Below are positions 1,422 to 56,702 of a stretch of 62,478 nucleotides of DNA, in pieces. Below the pieces are notes generated by a model that was given only the letters and a program-made list of their open reading frames with translations, ran no database searches and was not told where the DNA came from. The stretch comes from Alcanivorax sp. DG881 (GTDB lineage: Bacteria > Pseudomonadota > Gammaproteobacteria > Pseudomonadales > Alcanivoracaceae). The stretch spans positions 1,128,558-1,191,035 of the forward strand of contig NZ_DS989915.1 in the NCBI RefSeq assembly GCF_000155615.1, written 5' to 3'. The position numbers and the translations under genes were made by a program. Every line of letters starts with the position of its first letter. The first letter of the stretch is position 1.

Positions 1422-1745
1422 TTATTTTTCAACCCACTGACCACCCGGCGTCTTCACGTACTGCCCGGCTTCGGTTTTATCAATCGCTTTTTGGCCCGCC
1501 AGCCTGGCCACCTGCTCCAGCGTGATGCCGTTTTGTTTGGCAATGCGTTCGTAAGCGGCCCGACGTTTCTGATTAATATCCGCCGCCAGCTCCACCGCCG
1601 CCGGTGTCGCTTTCACAACGCCCAGGTAACCATCCGTCTGCTCACCGACCAGACCCTGGCTTTTCGCTGCGTCCAGATCCAGCGCAAACGCGGCCATACT
1701 CAGCAGCAAGGCCACCATGGCCAATGCAGATTTCAACATTTTCAT
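1422..1745 (-). CDS. ydbL: YdbL-like DUF1318 periplasmic protein
   Basis: A 107-aa protein with a Sec signal peptide (cleavage near AFA-LDLDAA) and a DUF1318 body containing LAADINQKRRAAYERIAKQ and a C-terminal TPGGQWVEK. In enterobacteria YdbL is encoded with YdbH and YnbE and modulates that envelope-spanning complex. The ATG at 1745 has AAGGAG 5 nt upstream; a GTG two codons earlier is in frame but worse placed. It is the third gene of ydbH-ynbE-ydbL, 9 bp after ynbE. Assignment rests on sequence and operon order; its biochemical role here is inferred from the family. Confidence 0.88.
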   Translation of the reverse strand: MKMLKSALAMVALLLSMAAFALDLDAAKSQGLVGEQTDGYLGVVKATPAAVELAADINQKRRAAYERIAKQNGITLEQVARLAGQKAIDKTEAGQYVKTPGGQWVEK

Positions 1746-1754
1746 ACCCACTCC

Positions 1755-1949
1755 TTAAAACAGGTCGCTGTCTTCACTGAACAACTGATCGATATCCTTT
1801 TCCACTTTCAAACGGATTTCATGATCAATTTTCACATTCAGGTTAATAGTGATGGGATCTTCCGGTGCTTTCAGGGCCACCGTGGGCGTACAAGCCGCCA
1901 ACAGCCAGCCGGCCAGCAACACCGTGCCCAGCCCGAGTTTTTTCATCAT
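1755..1949 (-). CDS. ynbE: YnbE-like small outer membrane lipoprotein
   Basis: A 64-aa lipoprotein. The lipobox LAAC places the acylated Cys at residue 20, followed by a short beta-rich mature part (ITINLNVKIDHEIRLKVEKDI). YnbE is the outer membrane partner of YdbH in a bridge thought to carry phospholipid between membranes. Its ATG overlaps the ydbH stop as ATGA, so translation is probably coupled. Size, lipobox and position between ydbH and ydbL all match the family. Confidence 0.9.
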   Translation of the reverse strand: MMKKLGLGTVLLAGWLLAACTPTVALKAPEDPITINLNVKIDHEIRLKVEKDIDQLFSEDSDLF

Positions 1950-4612
1950 CGATTCTCCGTGCGCAGTTGTTCAGTGATTTCATCGCCAATGCGCAAGCTG
2001 CGCATCAACGCCAACACGTTTTCCCGGTGTGTGTAGTTAAACACTACCGGCAGACTTTTTCTTTGCGGGTTTATCCCTTTAATGGTGATCGCCGCATCCA
2101 GCCAACCCACTTTATCCATGGCCATACGCGCCTGGAAGTCGCTGATCAACAGGGTGCTAAGGCTGTCCAGCGCCAACTTCACCGCCTGATTGGAGTCGGC
2201 CATGGCTTGCACGCTGGACGAAGCAGGAATGATCAACGACAGAGGCTCTTCGTTGGCTAATCGCCCCTGTTCGATGACCAGAAAATCCGCTCCCAACTGC
2301 AAGGGGACATAGCCGCCGATTCGCCCGGACAGGGACACCGGTGGCGGGTTTTGCAATGCGGCCACTTCGGCGAGATCAATACGGCTGATCACCACCGGTT
2401 GCGGGCGGGCGGAGGGCCAGTCCAGTGCCGGGGATCGCAAATAACCGCCCAACAGATCGGCCCGGATATCAGTAAATTGCCATTGAGACAGGTCGCTATC
2501 CACGGTGAGAGCCAGATCAGTGATCGGCGTGCCGATATCCAGGGTGTCCACCGTCACGGGGCCGGCGCTGCTAAGCTGCACTTGGCCGTTATCGTATTCA
2601 CCATGAAGCACCCCGGCAGCGCCACGGACCGTCACGCTGCCCCAGTCCAGATCCGCACCGGTGAGCGTGATATCCCCGGAAGCTTTCAGCGTCTGCCGCC
2701 ATTGCCAGCGGCCGCTGCCTTCCAGCTGACCTTGCCGTGGAGTAGCGGCCAGGCCCACCCCCATGGCTGGCACCAGCGCGCTGCGCATGGTCAAGGTGCC
2801 GCTCGCACCACCATTATTCTCAAGCGCACCCTTGGCCCGCAATTCGCTTTGCCACTCACTCACGGTTAACCGGCTCTGCACCCGCTTGCCTTTCATCGTC
2901 GCCGTTCCTGATATCGGCGGCAGGCGCCAGCGGGCGGCCAGTAAGCCACCGCCATGAATGGCCACGGTGCCGGTGATGCCCTGTCCATTGATCTGCAACG
3001 GCCCCGTTGCACGCAGCGATACCGGCCGGATCAAGGCCTGCCCGATAAGCCCTTCGGAAATTGACGCCTGACTCCCTGCCGCCACGCTGACCGTGCCATC
3101 CGCCAACGACCAGGGGGCCTTTACCGTCACCTGCCCGCCACGCTCAAACTGCGGCAAGGTGGTACTGGCCTGGAGCGTACCGGCCCAGCCGGCCCCGGAC
3201 TGGGCAAAAGCCAGGGTGCCGTCCAGCGGGTAACCGGACATGTTGCCGCTCACCTTGGCCTCGGCACCATACGGGGCCTGCTGCAAGGTATTTACCGGCA
3301 TCAGAAAGCTCAGACGATCGCTCCCTTGCCGCGCCGTGAGCTTGACGGGCTCACCCTCCAGCCCATTACTGCCGACAGCGCCCTGCCACTCTCCTTGCCA
3401 TTGGTAGCCCTGCCACTGGCCCTGCAGCGACAGATCGCCCGCCCACTGCCAATCGAGCTGACTCGCGTCTTCAGCCCCTGCCCGTTGCCACTGAATCTGG
3501 CTGGAACCGGTTTTCACGTTCAAGCCGTCGTAACCCAACCGCAACGGCAGATCGGCCCGGCCGGAACGGGCCATGGGTATCTGCAGTGGCTCCTGCCACT
3601 GCGCGGTAAGATTTTGCGGCAAGGTCAGCGACGCCGGCTCAAGCACCAGCACGCGATCCTGCCAATGAAAGTCCAGCTGACCGCCCAGGCTGTCGCCCTG
3701 CAACAGCAACATCCCCCGGCCCTGTTCAAGCCCCGCCGGGTTGGTTGCGTCGGGATCATTATGAGCCTGCAATGTCACCGTGCCCGGCGGGCCTGCCAGT
3801 TGCAGCTTGCCCCTGGCGTTCGTCAACGCGAGGCCGTTGCCCGCCACCTCAAGGGGCTCTGCGGCGGTCAGTTGCCAGTCATTGTTCAGCGCCAATGGCT
3901 GGGCCAGATCCGCCTGCAGCTGCCAGTCGACTCCCTGAAAATGGGCTTGCGCGATCAGGTCCGCCCGTTGCGATTGCGTGACCGGTCCGGCCGAGCGCAT
4001 CTCCAGCTGTATCTCCCCGTCTGGCTCTCCTTGCCAACGCCCTTCGCCATGCAGTTGCCAGTGGCCCTGCCAATCCGGCAACAGCGCGCTTAGCGCCCCT
4101 TCACTGTTGATTGTCCATTGCCCCTCGGCGCGTTGGTATTGCGCCTGTAGCGCCACCTGCGGTGCAGACGCTTGCAGCTGCCAGCGCTGCTCCTGTTGAT
4201 TAAGCTGCATCGCCATGACGGGAAGGGGGGTATCAATCAATGCAGACAGGTCCAGCTCGGCAACCTGCAGATCAAAGGGCGGCGTCCAGGGAAGCCCGTC
4301 GGGGAATCTCTCACTGGAAGCCCCCGAGGCGCTCCCGGCACTGCAATCGTAGACGGCAAGCACCCGCTGCTTGATCTTGAGCGGCCAGACGTCCTCGAAC
4401 GTCAGGTCCGTGCCACGGGCGGCCACACAATCGTCGCGTATCAGGCGCCACTGCCCCAGTGTCAGGCCTTGCTGCCAACCCGGTTCACTGACGCGCACGC
4501 CTGCACCATAGGCCCAGCCCACCGCCACCAGAATCAGTAGCAGCACGGTGGCCAGCAGTAACAACAAGCCATATGCCCAGCGGCGAAGCATGCGCGAGGA
4601 TAATCGAACCAT
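1946..4612 (-). CDS. ydbH: YdbH-family AsmA-like envelope lipid-transport protein
   Basis: An 888-aa protein anchored by one N-terminal membrane helix (~12-36) with a long periplasmic beta-rich body. This is the AsmA-like bridge architecture shared with TamB and YhdP. The C-terminal third (NPPPVSLSGRIGGYVPL, GWLDAAITIKGINPQRK, FNYTHRENVLALMRSLRIGD) matches the YdbH 'dicarboxylate transport' domain (PF11739), a misleading historical name. In E. coli YdbH acts redundantly with TamB and YhdP in moving phospholipid to the outer membrane. It is followed by ynbE with an ATGA overlap and then ydbL, the known operon order. The start at 4612 gives a basic N-terminus (RLSSRMLRR) ahead of the helix. Confidence 0.88.
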   Translation of the reverse strand: MVRLSSRMLRRWAYGLLLLLATVLLLILVAVGWAYGAGVRVSEPGWQQGLTLGQWRLIRDDCVAARGTDLTFEDVWPLKIKQRVLAVYDCSAGSASGASSERFPDGLPWTPPFDLQVAELDLSALIDTPLPVMAMQLNQQEQRWQLQASAPQVALQAQYQRAEGQWTINSEGALSALLPDWQGHWQLHGEGRWQGEPDGEIQLEMRSAGPVTQSQRADLIAQAHFQGVDWQLQADLAQPLALNNDWQLTAAEPLEVAGNGLALTNARGKLQLAGPPGTVTLQAHNDPDATNPAGLEQGRGMLLLQGDSLGGQLDFHWQDRVLVLEPASLTLPQNLTAQWQEPLQIPMARSGRADLPLRLGYDGLNVKTGSSQIQWQRAGAEDASQLDWQWAGDLSLQGQWQGYQWQGEWQGAVGSNGLEGEPVKLTARQGSDRLSFLMPVNTLQQAPYGAEAKVSGNMSGYPLDGTLAFAQSGAGWAGTLQASTTLPQFERGGQVTVKAPWSLADGTVSVAAGSQASISEGLIGQALIRPVSLRATGPLQINGQGITGTVAIHGGGLLAARWRLPPISGTATMKGKRVQSRLTVSEWQSELRAKGALENNGGASGTLTMRSALVPAMGVGLAATPRQGQLEGSGRWQWRQTLKASGDITLTGADLDWGSVTVRGAAGVLHGEYDNGQVQLSSAGPVTVDTLDIGTPITDLALTVDSDLSQWQFTDIRADLLGGYLRSPALDWPSARPQPVVISRIDLAEVAALQNPPPVSLSGRIGGYVPLQLGADFLVIEQGRLANEEPLSLIIPASSSVQAMADSNQAVKLALDSLSTLLISDFQARMAMDKVGWLDAAITIKGINPQRKSLPVVFNYTHRENVLALMRSLRIGDEITEQLRTENR

Positions 4613-4683: not shown

Positions 4684-5244
4684 TCAGTCTGTGGCCGGTT
4701 CTGCCTGTGAGGCTATGACGTGTTGATGGAGCAGCAGAGCCATGGCCGCCACGCGGCTGACGGCATCCACCGACAGGGTGGCGCCGGTAATACCATCCAC
4801 CTCACGGGACAGGCTCAGGTCATCCTGCAGGGTGATCCCGACAAATTGCTGACGAAAAAACGCCTGGTGCACTTCCCCGCCCCGGGGTTCGCGGTATACC
4901 AACACGTTCAGGTGAGTAATGCCGGCCGGCCCCACGGCCACGGCCAGGGTCATCGGCATGTCCTTGCTTTTCTCGTCGATGATCCAGGTCGTCACGTTCC
5001 CCTGCTGCCAGTAACGCAAACGCAGGCCGCGATACCGATGCCCCAGTGCCGTCTCTACCTGGTCACGCAGGTCGCCACGTAACGGCAACAGAGACATCCC
5101 CGGCAATGGCTCGCCATAGACTTGGGACAAAAACGCATCCACCGTCATAAACTCGGTTTCATCATAGCCGCTGATCGCCAATGCCTGCGCACTCATGACA
5201 AGCCACAGCGCCGTCATCACCAGATTGATGCCGCGCCTCTTCAA
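4684..5244 (-). CDS. Secreted FMN-binding domain protein (covalent flavin, RnfG/NqrC type)
   Basis: A 186-aa exported protein with a signal peptide ending near AQALA. The motif DGITGAT at residues 150-156 matches the site where ApbE links FMN to a Thr through phosphoester, here Thr156. Such domains serve as periplasmic electron carriers. There is no further membrane helix, so it should be soluble in the periplasm. The likely start is TTG at 5244, overlapping the stop of the upstream lipoprotein gene as TTGA; it gives a basic n-region (KRRG), whereas the next ATG (5217) would remove all positive charges. Coupling to the LolB-MpaB fusion suggests it passes electrons to that oxygenase; this is inference. 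Confidence 0.82.
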   Translation of the reverse strand: MKRRGINLVMTALWLVMSAQALAISGYDETEFMTVDAFLSQVYGEPLPGMSLLPLRGDLRDQVETALGHRYRGLRLRYWQQGNVTTWIIDEKSKDMPMTLAVAVGPAGITHLNVLVYREPRGGEVHQAFFRQQFVGITLQDDLSLSREVDGITGATLSVDAVSRVAAMALLLHQHVIASQAEPATD

Positions 5245-6905
5245 TTGACCAGCCGCTCCTTATCGAAGAAGGCTTCAATCAACCACTGGTTATAACCGCC
5301 CAGCCGCTCACCTTCCAGACGCGCCTGTGCCTCATGATAAATCGGGTGATGCTCCATGCTCTTCGGCATCAACACCTGGGCGGTCCAGGTGGCGCCACGA
5401 ATCCAGCCATAGTTGAATTTCTGCCACCAGCCATACTTCATGTCGTACTGATCCCGAATACGCGGTGGCAATTCAGCAGCGGTGATGATTTTCTGCCCCC
5501 AGAGTGGCGCGATCATCCAGATGGATTTGGCGTCAAACAGGTCTTCCTTCAATTGCATGGCATTGGGAGTCACCGTCAGCTGCGGGCTTTCCCACATGGC
5601 GCGGTTATAGTCCATAAACGCGTCCCAGTCTTTAGGCAAGGCGCTTTCCGGAATCCCGAACAACATGGCAAACAATTTGGTTTCTTCGTAGAACTGGTTC
5701 TTCTCTTCCGGAGTCAGATCATCTTCCAGCTTTTCGTACATGTGGACGATGGTTTCCCACAGTGTTGCATGCACCCAGATCATGGCGTTGATTTCGTTGG
5801 CCCGGTATTCGGAACCCCGGTGGAAAGCACCGGCCTCTTCAGTCATTTCACCGTCAATTTCCTCATGGATATCCCGCACCTGGTTCGCCGAGGCCATCGC
5901 CTGGGGCATACTGCCAAACACCATGCTGGAGATATGATAGAAAGTACGACGGGCCCGCCCCATGGGGTCATTGCGCACTTCCGAGTGCTGATCAATACCT
6001 GCGGTTACCCAGGGGTGTGCTACCTGCAACAACAGTGCACGACCGGCACCAAAGGCGGGTGGCGCGCTCAAACCATCCAGTTTCCACATCATGGAATCCG
6101 GGCCAAAAAGCCCCTCGCGGGGATTGGGCATTTTGTTGTTATGGACCTTGGCCAGCTGTTTACAGAAGTTGGCTTCATCAATCCACAGCGGCAACGGCGC
6201 GCTGCCATCTTCGGGCACCAACCGCTTCACCGCATCATCGCTGGCATAGTCATAAGCACCGTCAGGGTTGTCCGTTTTCTGATCATCGGCTATGCCCTGA
6301 TCACAGGGGCTGGTGAGAAACCCGGTTTCCGCTCGCACCAGTTCCAGATCCAGAGACGCGCCCTCAGATTTCATTTCCATATCTGCAGGCAAGCGATAGC
6401 CCCCCTGCACGGACATGTAATCCTGGTAAGCAATCTTCCACCCGTTTTCTTCGATGGACTCCGGCAGGTATAGATTCTCCTGATAGATCACCGCATTGGC
6501 GGTGGCAGGCAGCCCCCGCACCCAATAGGACAGATCTCCCGCCTGGAGCTGGGCATGCAGGTGCTCAGCCACTTTCTTGGCGCTCGCCCCACCGATCACA
6601 TCCAGCGTTTCCTCTTGCGGCGCATAGACATTGCCGCTGATCACCGCCTTGGGGGCACCCACTGGATCATCCATCAACACGGCCAGCTGGTAATTTTCTC
6701 CCAGCTGCTTGAAGTAAAAATAGCTTTTGCTTTTTATGCCATCCGCACGCAGCACAAACTGACCTTCCACCATCCACTCATTCAGTGTTTCCGGAGAGGT
6801 AGGCACATAGCTCGACTCTTGTAGGGAAGAGCAGCCCTGCAGGCCAAGCAGCAGGACCAACAGCATTTTTTTACCCTGTTGAGGCAGCAAGGAGATCATC
6901 ATCAT
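5241..6905 (-). CDS. Lipoprotein fusing a LolB-like domain to an MpaB-type (DUF2236) oxygenase
   Basis: A 554-aa protein with two recognisable parts. The N-terminus is a lipoprotein signal with Cys25 (LQGC). Residues ~40-200 resemble LolB: WMVEGQFVLRADG, a FKQ strand, DDPVGAP, YWVRGLPA, NGWKIAYQDY and YRLPADMEMKSEG line up in order with the LolB fold. Residues ~225-554 are a DUF2236/MpaB domain with the signature QVAHPWVTAGIDQHS followed by NDPMGRARR. DUF2236 proteins include MpaB and the b-type heme latex-clearing protein Lcp, which oxidatively cleave isoprenoid double bonds. The fusion would tether an oxygenase to a membrane surface. The start among three adjacent ATGs (6905-6899) is uncertain. 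Confidence 0.82.
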   Translation of the reverse strand: MMMISLLPQQGKKMLLVLLLGLQGCSSLQESSYVPTSPETLNEWMVEGQFVLRADGIKSKSYFYFKQLGENYQLAVLMDDPVGAPKAVISGNVYAPQEETLDVIGGASAKKVAEHLHAQLQAGDLSYWVRGLPATANAVIYQENLYLPESIEENGWKIAYQDYMSVQGGYRLPADMEMKSEGASLDLELVRAETGFLTSPCDQGIADDQKTDNPDGAYDYASDDAVKRLVPEDGSAPLPLWIDEANFCKQLAKVHNNKMPNPREGLFGPDSMMWKLDGLSAPPAFGAGRALLLQVAHPWVTAGIDQHSEVRNDPMGRARRTFYHISSMVFGSMPQAMASANQVRDIHEEIDGEMTEEAGAFHRGSEYRANEINAMIWVHATLWETIVHMYEKLEDDLTPEEKNQFYEETKLFAMLFGIPESALPKDWDAFMDYNRAMWESPQLTVTPNAMQLKEDLFDAKSIWMIAPLWGQKIITAAELPPRIRDQYDMKYGWWQKFNYGWIRGATWTAQVLMPKSMEHHPIYHEAQARLEGERLGGYNQWLIEAFFDKERLVN

Positions 6906-6937: not shown

Positions 6938-8608
6938 TTATGCGGTTTTTCGCAAGGCTTTCTTGTCGATCTTGCCCACGGAGGTAAGAGGGATGGCATC
7001 AATGAAGAAAACCTCTCTGGGTACCTTGTAAGGCGACATATTGGCTTTGCAGAACGTGGACAACTCTGCTTTAAGGTCTGACTCGGACGCCTGATTGTCC
7101 GGCATGCGCTGAATATACAGCTGCACCACATCGTTACCCGGCCGGTCATGATCCGGGCGGCCGACAACTGCGCACATGGCGACCCATGGCAGGCTCTGCA
7201 CCTTGCTTTCCACTTCCACGGAAAACACCTTGTAGCCGCCGACAATCAGCATGTCCTTGCTGCGGTCACAGACGCGAATAAAACCGTCTTCATCCATGAC
7301 GCCAATGTCACCGGTGTGCATCCACGTCTGACCATCCATCACCCGCAGTGCCTTTTCAGAGGCTTCCGGCATGGCCAGATAGCCCTGCATGATCTGTGGA
7401 CCCGCTGCGATGATTTCTCCGGCTTCGCCCAGGGGCATCGGGATATTGCCGTCTTCAGCATCCACGATGCGCACATCCGTGCCCGGCAGCGGAATCCCCA
7501 CGTGGGCTTCCTTGAAGTGTGATGCCGGATTCAGCGTGATCACCGGGCTGGTCTCCGTCATGCCGTACACTTCGCAAAACTTGCCGGCACCGACCACGCT
7601 TTCCAGTTTCTGTACTTCTTCCTTGGCAAACGGTGCGGCACCGGAAATGGCCATGCGCAAGCCGCTGAAATCCAGTGATTTGAAGGTGTCGTTAGCGCAC
7701 AGCATTTGGTACAACGCCGGCACCGCCGCCAGCACCGTCGGTGTCCGCTTCTGCATTTCGCCAACAAAATGATCAATGTCCCGGGGATCCGGGATCAGCA
7801 GGAACGTGGACGCTGTACGCAGGGCATTGAACAACACGGCCGCCCCGCCGATATGAAACAGCGGGAACGCCGAGGCGACGGTTTCTTCACCGGTGCGGTA
7901 GCCATAGAACACGTTGGCTTGCAGGTTATTCATGAACAGGTTGAACGAACTGAGCCGGGCCCCTTTCGGCATACCAGTGGTGCCACCGGTGTACTGCAGA
8001 TACAGCACGTCATCCATCGCTACCTTCGTGTTGACCGGATCCGCACTGGACGGCAGGTGATCATGCAACGACATGACATTCACACCGTCCCGGGATTCCT
8101 CCACGCTTTCTCCCTGGCCAGTAACCAGATCCATGGGCCCGGACACGATTACCGTGCTCAGGCTCTCCACCTTGCCCAATACCGGTGGAATGGAGGTCTG
8201 CCAGAACGACATCAGTGTCATCAGGATTTTCACTCTGGCATCGCTGGCCTGGTGAATAATTTCCGGCGGAGTCATTAAAGGCGAGATGCTGGTACTGACC
8301 ATGCCCAGACGCGCCGCCGCAATAAAGGCCACCACATATTGCGGGGTATTTGGCATCTGCAGGCCCAGAACGTCGCCCGCTTTGGCGCCCTGTGCCACAA
8401 ACAACGCCACCATGCGATCAGCCATCTCATCCAGTTGCCGGTAGCTCATGGCATGCCCCAGAAACACCAGCGCTTCGCGATTCGGAAACTGCTCCGCATA
8501 CCCTCGCACATAGTCCGACAGGGTTTTCTCGGGCAGCTCTGGCAGGGTGTGCCAGTCATGGCCCATCGATTCATAGGTAGACAACCAGGGGCGAGTATCC
8601 GACTTCAT
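6938..8608 (-). CDS. AMP-binding acyl-CoA ligase (FadD-like)
   Basis: A 556-aa adenylate-forming enzyme that activates a carboxylic acid to acyl-AMP and then acyl-CoA. Core motifs appear in order: YTGGTTGMPKGA (A3, phosphate loop), YGMTETSP (A5), HTGDIG (A7), VGGYKVFSVEVE (A8 hinge) and GKIDKKALR with the catalytic A10 lysine. Length and motifs fit medium to long-chain fatty acid ligases; the substrate cannot be read from sequence. The ATG at 8608 is chosen with AAGGTG upstream; a GTG at 8617 is in frame. It sits 11 bp after the second MpaB-type gene on the same strand. It probably activates acids produced by the two oxygenases; that link is inferred from context. Confidence 0.9.
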   Translation of the reverse strand: MKSDTRPWLSTYESMGHDWHTLPELPEKTLSDYVRGYAEQFPNREALVFLGHAMSYRQLDEMADRMVALFVAQGAKAGDVLGLQMPNTPQYVVAFIAAARLGMVSTSISPLMTPPEIIHQASDARVKILMTLMSFWQTSIPPVLGKVESLSTVIVSGPMDLVTGQGESVEESRDGVNVMSLHDHLPSSADPVNTKVAMDDVLYLQYTGGTTGMPKGARLSSFNLFMNNLQANVFYGYRTGEETVASAFPLFHIGGAAVLFNALRTASTFLLIPDPRDIDHFVGEMQKRTPTVLAAVPALYQMLCANDTFKSLDFSGLRMAISGAAPFAKEEVQKLESVVGAGKFCEVYGMTETSPVITLNPASHFKEAHVGIPLPGTDVRIVDAEDGNIPMPLGEAGEIIAAGPQIMQGYLAMPEASEKALRVMDGQTWMHTGDIGVMDEDGFIRVCDRSKDMLIVGGYKVFSVEVESKVQSLPWVAMCAVVGRPDHDRPGNDVVQLYIQRMPDNQASESDLKAELSTFCKANMSPYKVPREVFFIDAIPLTSVGKIDKKALRKTA

Positions 8609-8619
8609 AAAAAGCACCT

Positions 8620-9510
8620 TCAGTTATTGCTGTTATAGGCTTCAGGGTGGCGCTGCGCATCCGTGTAGGCTTTGCGGGCCAGTGGAATCAATCGCCACTT
8701 TTTCGGTGTCAGGGCATGCATGGTGCGATAAGTGCCACACCACAGACGGAAAAGGCGCTCGTCATTAGTCATCCAGGGAATATGGAAGGTTTCGCGGAAC
8801 GCATCGGGCAGCGTTGCGCGCAAATTGAATCGCATAAAGCGCCCCATCACGGCGAGGATCATGCGCCAGGCGGTATCGGGTATCTTGCTGTTTGGGGGCT
8901 TGGGGATTTCCAGATAATGCTCGGGGCGCATGAGATCCTGCACCACCGCTCCCCACTCAAGCTTGTCGCGGATCATGCCGTGGAAGTAATCCCAGTATTC
9001 GCTCTCCGTGGCGGGCAGGTCCTTGTCACGGATGCCCATCAGTTTTCCCAGTTGCCGCCATTCGGCAAACATCGCATGGCGCTGCCGGGTGGTGGGCGAC
9101 GTGCCGTAAAGCTCATGCATGCGAAGGGTGGCGTCGTAACCGGTGATGTGCACCCAGCTGTAGGCCTCCGGGTCCAGCGCAAAGTACTTTTTGCCGTGCT
9201 TGTCGACGCCCTTGATGGAGCGATGCAGGTCGTACAGTTTCACACCCATCTCGATCGCACGCTGGGGGCTCGCATACACGATGGGCCACAACAATTCCGT
9301 GGACCGTTTGGCGCGGCCCCAGGGGTCCGTTTTATAGACGGAGTGTTCCCCCACACCCGCATCAATAATCGGGTGCGCCACCTGCAACACAAAAGCCTGT
9401 GGCAGCATCAAATGAAAACGCCAGGAACCGAAATCCTGCCAGGTCAGGGAATCAGGCCCTAAAGGTTGAAGGTCCAGGCGTCGTTCTGTTTGTTCGGCGG
9501 TCTGTGTCAT
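8620..9510 (-). CDS. MpaB-type (DUF2236) oxygenase, stand-alone
   Basis: A 296-aa DUF2236 protein with the same signature as the fusion protein downstream: QVAHPIIDAGVGEHS, then TDPWGRAKRS, an SWVHITGYDA segment and a C-terminal FHIPWMTNDERLFRL block. There is no signal peptide or lipobox, so unlike its paralogue it is predicted to be cytoplasmic. DUF2236 members with known activity are heme-dependent oxygenases acting on isoprenoids. It lies upstream of the acyl-CoA ligase and 166 bp from the TetR gene, likely the first gene of the operon reading to 4684. The ATG at 9510 is taken; a GTG at 9525 is possible. Confidence 0.83.
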   Translation of the reverse strand: MTQTAEQTERRLDLQPLGPDSLTWQDFGSWRFHLMLPQAFVLQVAHPIIDAGVGEHSVYKTDPWGRAKRSTELLWPIVYASPQRAIEMGVKLYDLHRSIKGVDKHGKKYFALDPEAYSWVHITGYDATLRMHELYGTSPTTRQRHAMFAEWRQLGKLMGIRDKDLPATESEYWDYFHGMIRDKLEWGAVVQDLMRPEHYLEIPKPPNSKIPDTAWRMILAVMGRFMRFNLRATLPDAFRETFHIPWMTNDERLFRLWCGTYRTMHALTPKKWRLIPLARKAYTDAQRHPEAYNSNN

Positions 9511-9676
9511 GAAACATTCGATCACTGGCTGTGAGACAAATTAAAAAATACGTCTCACTCAGACCGAAAAGCAACCCATGCATACAGCTTTCCGCATTAT
9601 GTTTAGAACAAAAGGATCAATTACCCGTTACTTTGAGTCAGGAAGAATTGGGTTAGTAAGAGGGTCAGGAAAGCTA

Positions 9677-10303
9677 TCAAGGAGCCAGAAGCGGGCGCAG
9701 GTAGTCTTCTGCTACCTGACGAACGCTGGCCGCATCGGCCGGGTTCAATATGCCATCAGGGGACAGCACCATGGATTGCATAAGCCGTAGCATCAGCTCA
9801 GCCATGGGCTCCATGGGCTGCTGCCGTATGGCGCCGTTGTCTTGCTCCACTTGCAACAGCCCGGCCAGATAGATGCGAAAGAATCCCATCATTTGCCACA
9901 GCCGTTGCGTCAGTAACGGCAAAATGGTTTCCGGTTCCGAGGTCAGCAACCGCTTCAGCAACGGGTGCCGATGGGCTCGGGTTACCGCCAGTACAAAGGA
10001 CTCTAGAACGCGTTCAAGACCATCGTCCACTTTCTCCAGGTCGCTCTCTATCATCGCCAGTTGCTGCTGGCATTCGCGCAAAATCACCACCTGAATCAAC
10101 TGGTCCTTGTCCGCAAAGCGGCGATAGGCCGTCGCCCGACCAATGCCCGCCCGGGTCGCCACATCCTCCATGGTGGTACGCCGCAGGCCGAATTCCACAA
10201 ACAGCGCCAACCCGGCATCGAGAATTTTCTCGTAGGTTTTGTCGCCCTGGGGAACCTGAATATTCTTGAGCAGTGCCTCCGATGCGATATGTTTGCGCGA
10301 CAT
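9677..10303 (-). CDS. TetR/AcrR-family transcriptional regulator
   Basis: A 208-aa regulator. The N-terminal helix-turn-helix reads TTMEDVATRAGIGRATAYRRF, the typical TetR operator-reading helix pair, followed by a variable helical ligand domain. The start MSRKHIASEALLKN at 10303 fits family length; the reading frame runs 34 codons further but without supporting features. It lies between the oxygenase/ligase genes and the acyl-CoA dehydrogenases, all on the same strand, so it is a plausible local repressor responding to an acyl-CoA or related ligand. No operator palindrome was identified with confidence in the 166 bp after it. Confidence 0.88.
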   Translation of the reverse strand: MSRKHIASEALLKNIQVPQGDKTYEKILDAGLALFVEFGLRRTTMEDVATRAGIGRATAYRRFADKDQLIQVVILRECQQQLAMIESDLEKVDDGLERVLESFVLAVTRAHRHPLLKRLLTSEPETILPLLTQRLWQMMGFFRIYLAGLLQVEQDNGAIRQQPMEPMAELMLRLMQSMVLSPDGILNPADAASVRQVAEDYLRPLLAP

Positions 10304-10405
10304 TCCAACTCCCTGTGATTCAAACCGGATACACGAGCACCCCAAGCGAACGCCCTCATCAGGGGTATATACCTTATGGCTTCCCGGCCCGCAATCATCA
10401 CACAC

Positions 10406-14265: not shown

Positions 14266-15606
14266 ATGGGCATCATCACAGATAGACACCTCACTCCAAA
14301 AGACCCCAAAGATGCCTGGCTAACCGAAGACGGCCCACGTGGGCATGGTCGATTCATGGTCAGACTTCAGCCAAACGGGAAGCATCTCTTCTACTTCCGT
14401 TACAGTGACCAGACAGGTAAACGCCAGTTTCACCCGCTTGGAGTTTACTCACGCACTGGCACCACCGGGCTCACTCTCAAGCAAGCCCGCACCCAAGCCA
14501 GCGAGTTATCGCGGCTCTACGTCTCAGGCATCAAGAACATTGGAGAGCACCTTAACTCAGAACGGGCCGCTCGAGAGGCCGCTAGGCAAGCAGAGCTATC
14601 ACGCCTTGAGCAAGAAGCGGCACAAAAAGAGGCCGAGGCCGCTGCACTGGCTTCTCGGCAAACCGTTTCCCAGCTCTTTGAGCGATGGATGGAAATTGAC
14701 GTGTCACACCGGAAAGACAAGGGTACAGAAGTCCGGCGCATGTTCGAGAAGGACGTTCTCCCCCTCATTGGCCAAGTCTTTGTCGCAGACATCCGTAAAG
14801 GGCACATCACTCAGGTGACAGATGCCATGGCGGCACGGGGTGTCACCCGCATGGTGAAAGTCGTATTCAGCCTGATGCGACAGATGTTCCGCTTTGCCGT
14901 GGACCGAGACATCATTGAATTCGACCCCAGCAGCAGTATTCGGAAAGCCAAAATCGGAGGTAAGGAGACTGAACGTGACCGAGTGCTATCCGAGGACGAG
15001 ATTCGACAACTGACAAACGCCCTACCCTCTGCCAACCTGCTGAAAACCTCTGAATTGGCTGTCTGGATAGCACTTTCCACCTGTTGCCGCATTGGTGAAC
15101 TTCTGGCGGCACGCTGGGAGTATATTGACCTAGAGCAAAGAACTTGGCTTATTCCTGCCGAAAACAGCAAGAACGGCAAGCCTCATCAAGTACACCTGTC
15201 AGCCTTTTCTGTCAGTTTCTTCCAACAGCTGCAGGAAATGACAGGCCTGTCCCCATGGTGCTACCCGAACAGAGCGGAAACCGGCCCTCTCTGCTCAAAA
15301 ACCATAACCAAGCAGCTTTCTGACCGACAGCGCCCGTCAAATAGTGGCACCATGAGCAATCGCACTAACAACGCGCAAGCTCTTTGTTTACCCGGTGGCA
15401 AGTGGACACCTCACGACCTTCGCAGAACCGGCGCAACCATGATGACCGCTCTAGGCGTACTTCCTGAAGTCGCAGAACGCTGCCTGAACCACACCGAAGA
15501 AAATAGGGTTAAAAGGACCTATCAACGCCATAGCTATACCAAGGAATGCAGCGAGGCTTGGGAGAAATTGGGCTCCCGGCTCCAGGATCTGACAGAACCA
15601 AGATGA
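14266..15606 (+). CDS. int: Tyrosine integrase of the tRNA-Pro island
   Basis: A 446-aa P4-type tyrosine recombinase that should catalyse integration and excision at tRNA-Pro. The N-terminal DUF4102-like arm-binding part (IITDRHLTPKDP, RFMVRLQPNGKHLFYFRYSD) is followed by a charged coiled linker rich in Ala, Glu and Arg, a core-binding domain, and the catalytic domain. Catalytic residues are visible: Arg275 (CRIGEL), a Lys in NSKNGKPHQ, His383 and Arg386 (HDLR), His409 (LNHTE) and the nucleophile Tyr424 (RHSYTKE). It is complete. It sits beside the truncated tRNA copy rather than the intact tRNA, the reverse of the more common arrangement. Confidence 0.95.
   Translation: MGIITDRHLTPKDPKDAWLTEDGPRGHGRFMVRLQPNGKHLFYFRYSDQTGKRQFHPLGVYSRTGTTGLTLKQARTQASELSRLYVSGIKNIGEHLNSERAAREAARQAELSRLEQEAAQKEAEAAALASRQTVSQLFERWMEIDVSHRKDKGTEVRRMFEKDVLPLIGQVFVADIRKGHITQVTDAMAARGVTRMVKVVFSLMRQMFRFAVDRDIIEFDPSSSIRKAKIGGKETERDRVLSEDEIRQLTNALPSANLLKTSELAVWIALSTCCRIGELLAARWEYIDLEQRTWLIPAENSKNGKPHQVHLSAFSVSFFQQLQEMTGLSPWCYPNRAETGPLCSKTITKQLSDRQRPSNSGTMSNRTNNAQALCLPGGKWTPHDLRRTGATMMTALGVLPEVAERCLNHTEENRVKRTYQRHSYTKECSEAWEKLGSRLQDLTEPR

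Positions 15607-56368: not shown

Positions 56369-56702
<334 letters not shown>

Follow-up and report, generated by a model that had tools for sequence, protein, structure and literature searches.

A gene pair of Alcanivorax sp. DG881 raises the question of what an oxygenase built into a LolB-type lipoprotein may do, and where its electrons would come from. The pair lies in a stretch of 62,478 nucleotides (NCBI RefSeq assembly GCF_000155615.1, contig NZ_DS989915.1, positions 1,128,558 to 1,191,035 of the forward strand), which is called the window here. One frame joins a LolB domain to an oxygenase domain of the DUF2236 family, and the adjoining gene encodes a protein expected to carry covalent flavin mononucleotide (FMN). 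With somewhat better than even confidence, we read the fusion as a periplasmic heme oxygenase that is tethered to the outer membrane, reduced by an inner-membrane PepSY protein through the covalent FMN, and directed at a hydrophobic substrate. The features on which this reading leans are as follows.

5241..6905, minus strand: LolB-oxygenase fusion lipoprotein, 554 amino acids (open frame)
6831..6905, minus strand: lipoprotein signal peptide with lipobox LQGC, recognised by eye; the Cys25 codon is 6831-6833
6345..6779, minus strand: LolB domain, residues 43-187 (Pfam; LolB structures by sequence and by fold)
5415..6056, minus strand: MPAB_Lcp_cat (DUF2236) oxygenase domain, residues 284-497 (Pfam; Lcp through profile A4)
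5943..5957, minus strand: Arg317 (5955-5957) to Thr321 (5943-5945), equivalent to Lcp Arg164 and Thr168 (alignment to 5o1l)
5865..5867, minus strand: His347, equivalent to Lcp His198, the proximal heme ligand (alignment to 5o1l)
6162..6305, minus strand: Cys201 (6303-6305) and Cys248 (6162-6164), which may form a disulfide in the periplasm (invariance in fusions)
4684..5244, minus strand: FMN_bind protein, 186 amino acids, with an N-terminal signal by eye (Pfam; NqrC/RnfG fold)
4777..4797, minus strand: flavinylation motif DGITGAT, residues 150-156, with FMN expected on Thr156 (alignment A3)

A preliminary description, made from the letters alone, had reported a 554-residue frame with a lipobox at Cys25, a LolB-like domain and a DUF2236 signature, followed by a gene that starts in the TTGA stop and encodes a secreted protein with the motif DGITGAT. 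These elements were all recovered. Pfam assigned both LolB (PF03550; E 9.7e-14, 52.1 bits against a cut-off of 23.7) and MPAB_Lcp_cat (PF09995; E 5.4e-49, 167.7 bits, cut-off 23) to the one open frame. The TTGA at 5241-5244 is common to both frames, the start of the FMN gene (TTG) overlapping the stop of the fusion, and the 186-residue protein matched FMN_bind (E 1.6e-5, 25.9 bits, cut-off 22). In alignment A1, which holds 25 of the 26 full-length copies of the fusion (the copy of genome G003 was left out, as were the split copy of G009 and the garbled copy of G011), the lipobox Cys25 is invariant (25/25), and the residue after it is Ser, Gly or Ala and never Asp.

The fusion recurs well beyond the window. 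We searched samples of 46 genomes of the family, 293 of the order, 369 of the class and 398 of the phylum. Within the family it occurs in 19 of the 46 genomes, namely 15 of the 17 of the window's genus and four of the seven of genus g4. Among the 15, the fusion of G009 is split over two overlapping frames and that of G011 is garbled. The order sample holds a full-length fusion in 12 of 293 genomes, seven of them in a second family, f29. G008 and G012 each have two nearby copies (L036, L041), and the FMN gene follows one copy of each pair. A profile search of the class and phylum samples at E up to 1e-40 returned no fusion besides the window's own; solo oxygenases were the sole matches, in one class and seven phylum genomes. 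Likewise, 26 plasmid records matched the fusion query and none covered 80% of it. The G009 halves in two overlapping frames and the garbled frame of G011 could be taken to mean that two genes were joined by a sequencing error. In total, however, 24 genomes, among them the window's, carry 26 full-length copies in a single frame, and the 25 that were placed in a tree of the oxygenase domain (43 rows, midpoint root) form one clade with support 100/100. We therefore reject a sequencing or assembly join, to which we attach practically no probability. The prospect raised with the preliminary description, that the halves would be separate genes elsewhere and joined here, did not materialise.

The evidence for heme comes from comparison with Lcp. 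Profile A4, a broad DUF2236 family profile of 21 chosen rows, found Lcp in the PDB with an E-value of 2.8e-16. In the alignment of A4 to 5o1l, counted by hand, Lcp R164, T168 and H198 are matched by R317, T321 and H347 of the fusion. These three residues are invariant in all 40 rows of alignment A2, which comprises the 25 fusions and 15 solo homologues chosen from the family and order search matches. In passages of two Lcp papers (PMC6311187, PMC5522427), the three Lcp residues are described as conserved across 98.8-100% of 495 Lcp homologues, and as indispensable or almost so for activity. Since their equivalents are matched and kept, the fusion is, on sequence grounds, very probably a heme protein of the DUF2236 (MpaB/Lcp) family. 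It resembles Lcp (5o1l, 5o1m) in this heme site and in being extracytosolic.

An AlphaFold2 model of the fusion, built from 40 aligned sequences, had a pLDDT of 88.7 and a pTM of 0.86. Searched with Foldseek, it matched Lcp 5o1l at rank 25 (E 4.2e-3, TM by target 0.45) and t-anethole oxygenase 8s1j at rank 48 (E 3.2e-2, TM by target 0.62). The latter shares the fold of the fusion's oxygenase half, a likeness known from the fold match, the sequences not having been set side by side. It differs in that its solved chain, at 302 residues, leaves no room for an extra LolB domain, and in that its published assays used added free flavin. The activity of the Pseudomonas putida anethole oxygenase is reported, in part of one source (PMC3774712), to require flavin and NAD(P)H, a need that would fit a flavin donor for the DUF2236 fold.

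In the same Foldseek search, LolB structures came first (8orn_B, E 2.7e-9, TM by target 0.70) and LolA-like folds next, so the LolB barrel anticipated in the preliminary description is present in the model. Several features of LolB (1iwm, 8orn), the receptor that takes lipoproteins from LolA and inserts them into the outer membrane, are shared: the fold, the lipobox, the hydrophobic loop residue and two Trp. The place of E. coli LolB Leu68 is occupied by Val in 24 and Ile in one of the 25 fusions; Val at this place is also described for Xanthomonas LolB in part of a published account (PMC8739992). The two Trp, W128 and W156, are kept in 25/25 fusions. Unlike LolB, the fusion bears an oxygenase and scores 40.1 bits against the NCBIfam LolB equivalog TIGR00548, below the cut-off of 59.6. 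The genome encodes a separate LolB (G000:C2:3177918-3178370), and we reject the fusion as the housekeeping LolB. All 25 fusions also share Cys201 and Cys248; among the 15 solo homologues no Cys stands in either column, and in 13 of them the Cys201 column is a gap. A Cys201-Cys248 disulfide in the periplasm is possible on this pattern.

Does the LolB domain contribute more than attachment? It could be a mere anchor or a leftover of sorting, on an otherwise ordinary secreted DUF2236 oxygenase that meets a soluble or membrane-dissolved substrate unaided. In the tree, two solo oxygenases of G070, the one genome that represents its family, branch closest to the fusions (support 100/99). Both lack a LolB domain and, judged by eye, carry an export signal; one of them adjoins an FMN gene with the motif DGISGAT. 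Given these relatives, the LolB domain may have been acquired by a protein that was already exported and paired with an FMN gene. In the 12 copies most distant from the window's (G002, genus g4 and f29), moreover, identity to it is 32-41% over the LolB half and 58-64% over the oxygenase half. On the other hand, the lipobox by itself would suffice as an anchor, and the LolB fold, the Val or Ile at the Leu68 place and both Trp are nevertheless kept. We consider a mere anchor somewhat unlikely, and prefer a LolB domain that docks on the membrane or takes part in the handling of a hydrophobic molecule. As a separate observation, three solo DUF2236 oxygenases stand side by side in G070 (L080), which has five relatives of the fusion's oxygenase overall.

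The second component is the FMN protein. Its model (pLDDT 90.1, pTM 0.81) resembles NqrC and RnfG (8a1y_C, E 1.4e-4). The flavinylation motif of FMN_bind proteins is Dxx[ST]GAT. In alignment A3, which has 23 FMN-gene rows (the genes of G003, G009 and G011 were left out and that of L078 was put in), D[GN]I[TS]GAT is found in 23/23, and ApbE, the enzyme expected to attach the FMN, is encoded twice in the window's genome. Of 28 fusion copies (the window, split and garbled ones counted), 25 have the FMN gene alongside, and these represent 25 of the 26 fusion genomes; in garbled G011 the FMN protein lies within the same frame as the fusion. In that genome (L046), one frame of 1192 residues runs through the ligase described below, the fusion with an incomplete oxygenase half and the FMN protein, on an 8.3-kb contig, and is probably an assembly fault. 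In the family, FMN genes scoring below 1e-70 with profile A3 were found in 18 of the 19 fusion genomes and in none of the other 27. In the order sample, the close FMN clade occurs in 12 of 293 genomes, exactly the 12 with a full-length fusion, and in 0 of the 281 others. A3 was built from fusion-side FMN genes, and the high scores of these are by construction; the absence elsewhere is not.

What, in turn, would reduce the FMN protein? More distant members of the FMN family give an indication. A short PepSY_TM gene adjoins the FMN gene in all 25 non-fusion loci examined, these being the part of the FMN-family matches in the family and order searches that was returned as loci. The other side of the FMN gene is a porin by Pfam in 9 of the 10 non-fusion loci tested. 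The window's genome also carries this trio (G000:C2, around 3.435 Mb). Two His of the short PepSY, H9 and H203, are invariant (10/10 rows). In 9 of the 26 fusion genomes a PepSY_TM gene lies directly 3' of the fusion's FMN gene (5 of the 9 were checked by Pfam). Because the same kind of PepSY_TM directly follows the FMN gene, the fusion in these nine genomes occupies the place of the porin. The genomes that lack an adjacent copy have one elsewhere, and thus all 26 fusion genomes encode the short PepSY. The trio of porin, FMN_bind and short PepSY_TM is in itself widespread in the order (L130-L136, L144-L161).

The coupling also appears at the level of whole genomes. In the family, the short PepSY is present in 23 of 46 genomes, exactly those with at least one FMN gene of this FMN family; all 19 fusion genomes are among them. 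When genomes with a porin-type FMN gene are left out, PepSY is found in 12/12 fusion genomes and in 0/23 others. In seven of these 12 (G003, G005, G006, G011, G012, G015, G016) PepSY lies apart from the fusion (L162-L168). No FMN gene of this family was seen around those seven PepSY genes within the 8.4-11 kb fetched, and the only FMN gene of this kind in the seven genomes is the fusion's. We infer that a porin and an FMN gene were lost beside PepSY in these genomes and that PepSY was kept. In the f29 genomes G168, G213 and G271, PepSY stands beside a second FMN gene and is not adjacent to the fusion's.

In passages of two flavinylation surveys (PMC8238504, PMC11334425), PepSY is described as carrying electrons across the membrane for flavinylated proteins. 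The PepSY-like flavinylated systems described there share with the present one an FMN_bind protein with a DxxTGAT motif and a likely PepSY_TM partner; they differ from it in that the end acceptor proposed here is an oxygenase, and the main texts of both surveys contain no word beginning with "oxygenase". The genome comparison supports an electron route through PepSY, FMN protein and oxygenase, presumably in that direction. The preliminary description had proposed an oxygenase with its own flavin donor. The pairing stood, in that adjacency and co-occurrence are conserved; its picture lacked the likely short PepSY_TM partner and the porin-type setting of the FMN gene. Alternatively, the FMN protein and PepSY may make up a redox system, for iron or otherwise, with no tie to the oxygenase beyond a shared operon; the oxygenase would then need no donor. 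PepSY-like flavinylated clusters have been linked to iron reduction (in a part of PMC8238504), and RoxA, a rubber oxygenase of like reaction and unrelated sequence, needs no added cofactor (in a part of PMC6311187). Away from the fusion, too, the FMN genes examined adjoin PepSY and, where tested, mostly a porin. The fusion-type FMN clade, however, is in no genome without the fusion in either the family or the order sample. We regard such an independent redox system as unlikely, and retain the FMN protein as the candidate donor.

We propose the following sequence of events. The fusion lipoprotein would most likely sit in the outer membrane with its anchor in the inner leaflet; its LolB fold may dock on the membrane, or hold a hydrophobic molecule and present it to the oxygenase domain. 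This domain, presumably of the b-type heme kind (DUF2236: MpaB, Lcp, anethole oxygenase), would oxidise and probably cleave a C=C bond with O2. Its heme would be reduced in the periplasm by the covalent FMN of the neighbouring protein, and the FMN itself by the short PepSY_TM membrane cytochrome. The product, an aldehyde or acid, would enter the cell, be activated by an acyl-CoA ligase and then be degraded.

The last step refers to the genes upstream of the fusion on the same strand, which also include two acyl-CoA dehydrogenase genes.

6938..8617, minus strand: acyl-CoA ligase, upstream neighbour on the same strand (Pfam AMP-binding, E 1.2e-80)
8620..9525, minus strand: second DUF2236 protein, with no signal peptide seen by eye (Pfam, E 7.5e-57)
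9677..10405, minus strand: TetR-type regulator, which may be the cluster's first gene (Pfam TetR_N, E 8.8e-15)

Of the 25 fusion loci fetched, 20 have the ligase gene, whole or in part: every one of the 18 from Alcanivoracaceae and, from f29, L070 and L072. A second DUF2236 gene is near the fusion in 18 of the 25; L046 and L073 lie at contig ends. With the two genes not seen in 5 and 7 of the 25 loci, respectively, we reject them as obligatory partners. A phmmer search of the PDB with the second DUF2236 protein gave two matches, both at chance level. In L070 a FadL/TodX gene comes after PepSY. The ligase, second DUF2236 and FadL neighbours fit the breakdown of a hydrophobic compound. A hydrocarbon or isoprenoid with a C=C bond is our tentative suggestion for the substrate class, one that we would sooner expect to see revised than upheld.

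Downstream of the fusion, ydbH, a 64-residue lipoprotein frame (1755-1949) and a DUF1318 gene stand in a row within 1422-4612. We take the small lipoprotein to resemble YnbE and the DUF1318 protein to be YdbL-like. The row is an intermembrane lipid transport set beside the fusion. An OprF/OmpA-type gene (111-1289) comes next after it. The row invites a different account, in which the fusion is a lipoprotein-handling or membrane-repair factor whose oxygenase acts on membrane lipids, quinones or the acyl chains of lipoproteins rather than on a carbon source. The LolB fold handles acylated proteins, and ydbH and ydbL are also near the fusion in five relatives (G003, G009, G011, G015, G016). YdbH was not seen, however, in the other 20 of the 25 fetched loci, which led us to reject it as a partner. 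The separate LolB of the genome speaks against this account as well, and the ligase and acyl-CoA dehydrogenases nearby suggest a catabolic role instead. We judge such a handling or repair function quite improbable, and keep to the oxidation of a hydrophobic compound for catabolism.

Several observations weigh against the reading that we favour. First, a sequence search of the PDB with the fusion alone or with profile A2 found only LolB and gave no Lcp match, and the fold matches to Lcp and t-anethole oxygenase have weak E-values. Second, two Lcp residues are replaced. Lcp E148, a channel residue kept in the characterised Lcps, falls on V300, which is Val or Ile in 40/40 rows of A2; Lcp K167, the distal ligand in 59% of Lcps, falls on R320, which is Arg in 24 and Asn in one of the 25 fusions and Lys in none of the 40 rows. 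For want of these two residues, we reject the fusion as an Lcp proper and do not use that name for it; a LolB domain, a flavin partner and a Gram-negative host set it further apart from Lcp. Third, there is no adjacent FMN gene at one copy of G008, one copy of G012 and the only copy of G014. Fourth, PepSY is elsewhere in the genome in 17 of the 26 fusion genomes, the window's included. Moreover, co-occurrence was counted over related genomes, and for that reason the Fisher values overstate independence and are only a guide. Finally, several loci are without the ligase or the second DUF2236 gene.

Each part of the system belongs to a known family. In a full-text search of the literature, with subscription papers and preprints outside its scope, none of the DUF2236 papers was listed as dealing with a LolB fusion. 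The same search returned nothing on Alcanivorax together with MpaB, nor on rubber oxygenase together with lipoprotein, outer membrane and Gram-negative; for LolB, oxygenase and fusion protein together it returned only unrelated matter, as judged by the abstract. The combination, and an oxygenase as the end point of an FMN-PepSY pair, appear to be new within the literature searched. Put in general terms, electrons would pass outside the cytosol from an inner-membrane PepSY cytochrome to a covalent-flavin protein and on to a heme oxygenase housed in a lipid-binding lipoprotein of the outer membrane, so that hydrophobic molecules are oxidised there before entry. The FMN-PepSY pair would then be a portable power supply whose output has moved from a porin-linked task to an oxygenase. 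We hold this general picture to be evenly poised between right and wrong. If true, it would show how heme-based activation of O2 can be sustained in the periplasm by electrons that a covalent flavin carries across it, and it would site the oxidation of hydrophobic substrates at the outer membrane of hydrocarbon-degrading bacteria. For the poorly understood short PepSY/FMN pairs there would be an acceptor open to testing, and for the large DUF2236 family a candidate reductase.

Elsewhere in the window, a stretch of partly lower G+C (14266-56445) lies between a YlqF-like GTPase gene and tRNA-Pro (56369-56445). Judged by eye, it contains frames that resemble those of an integrase (14266-15606), a pair of RND metal-efflux pumps, a P-type ATPase and a transposase, and it is perhaps an integrated metal-resistance island.

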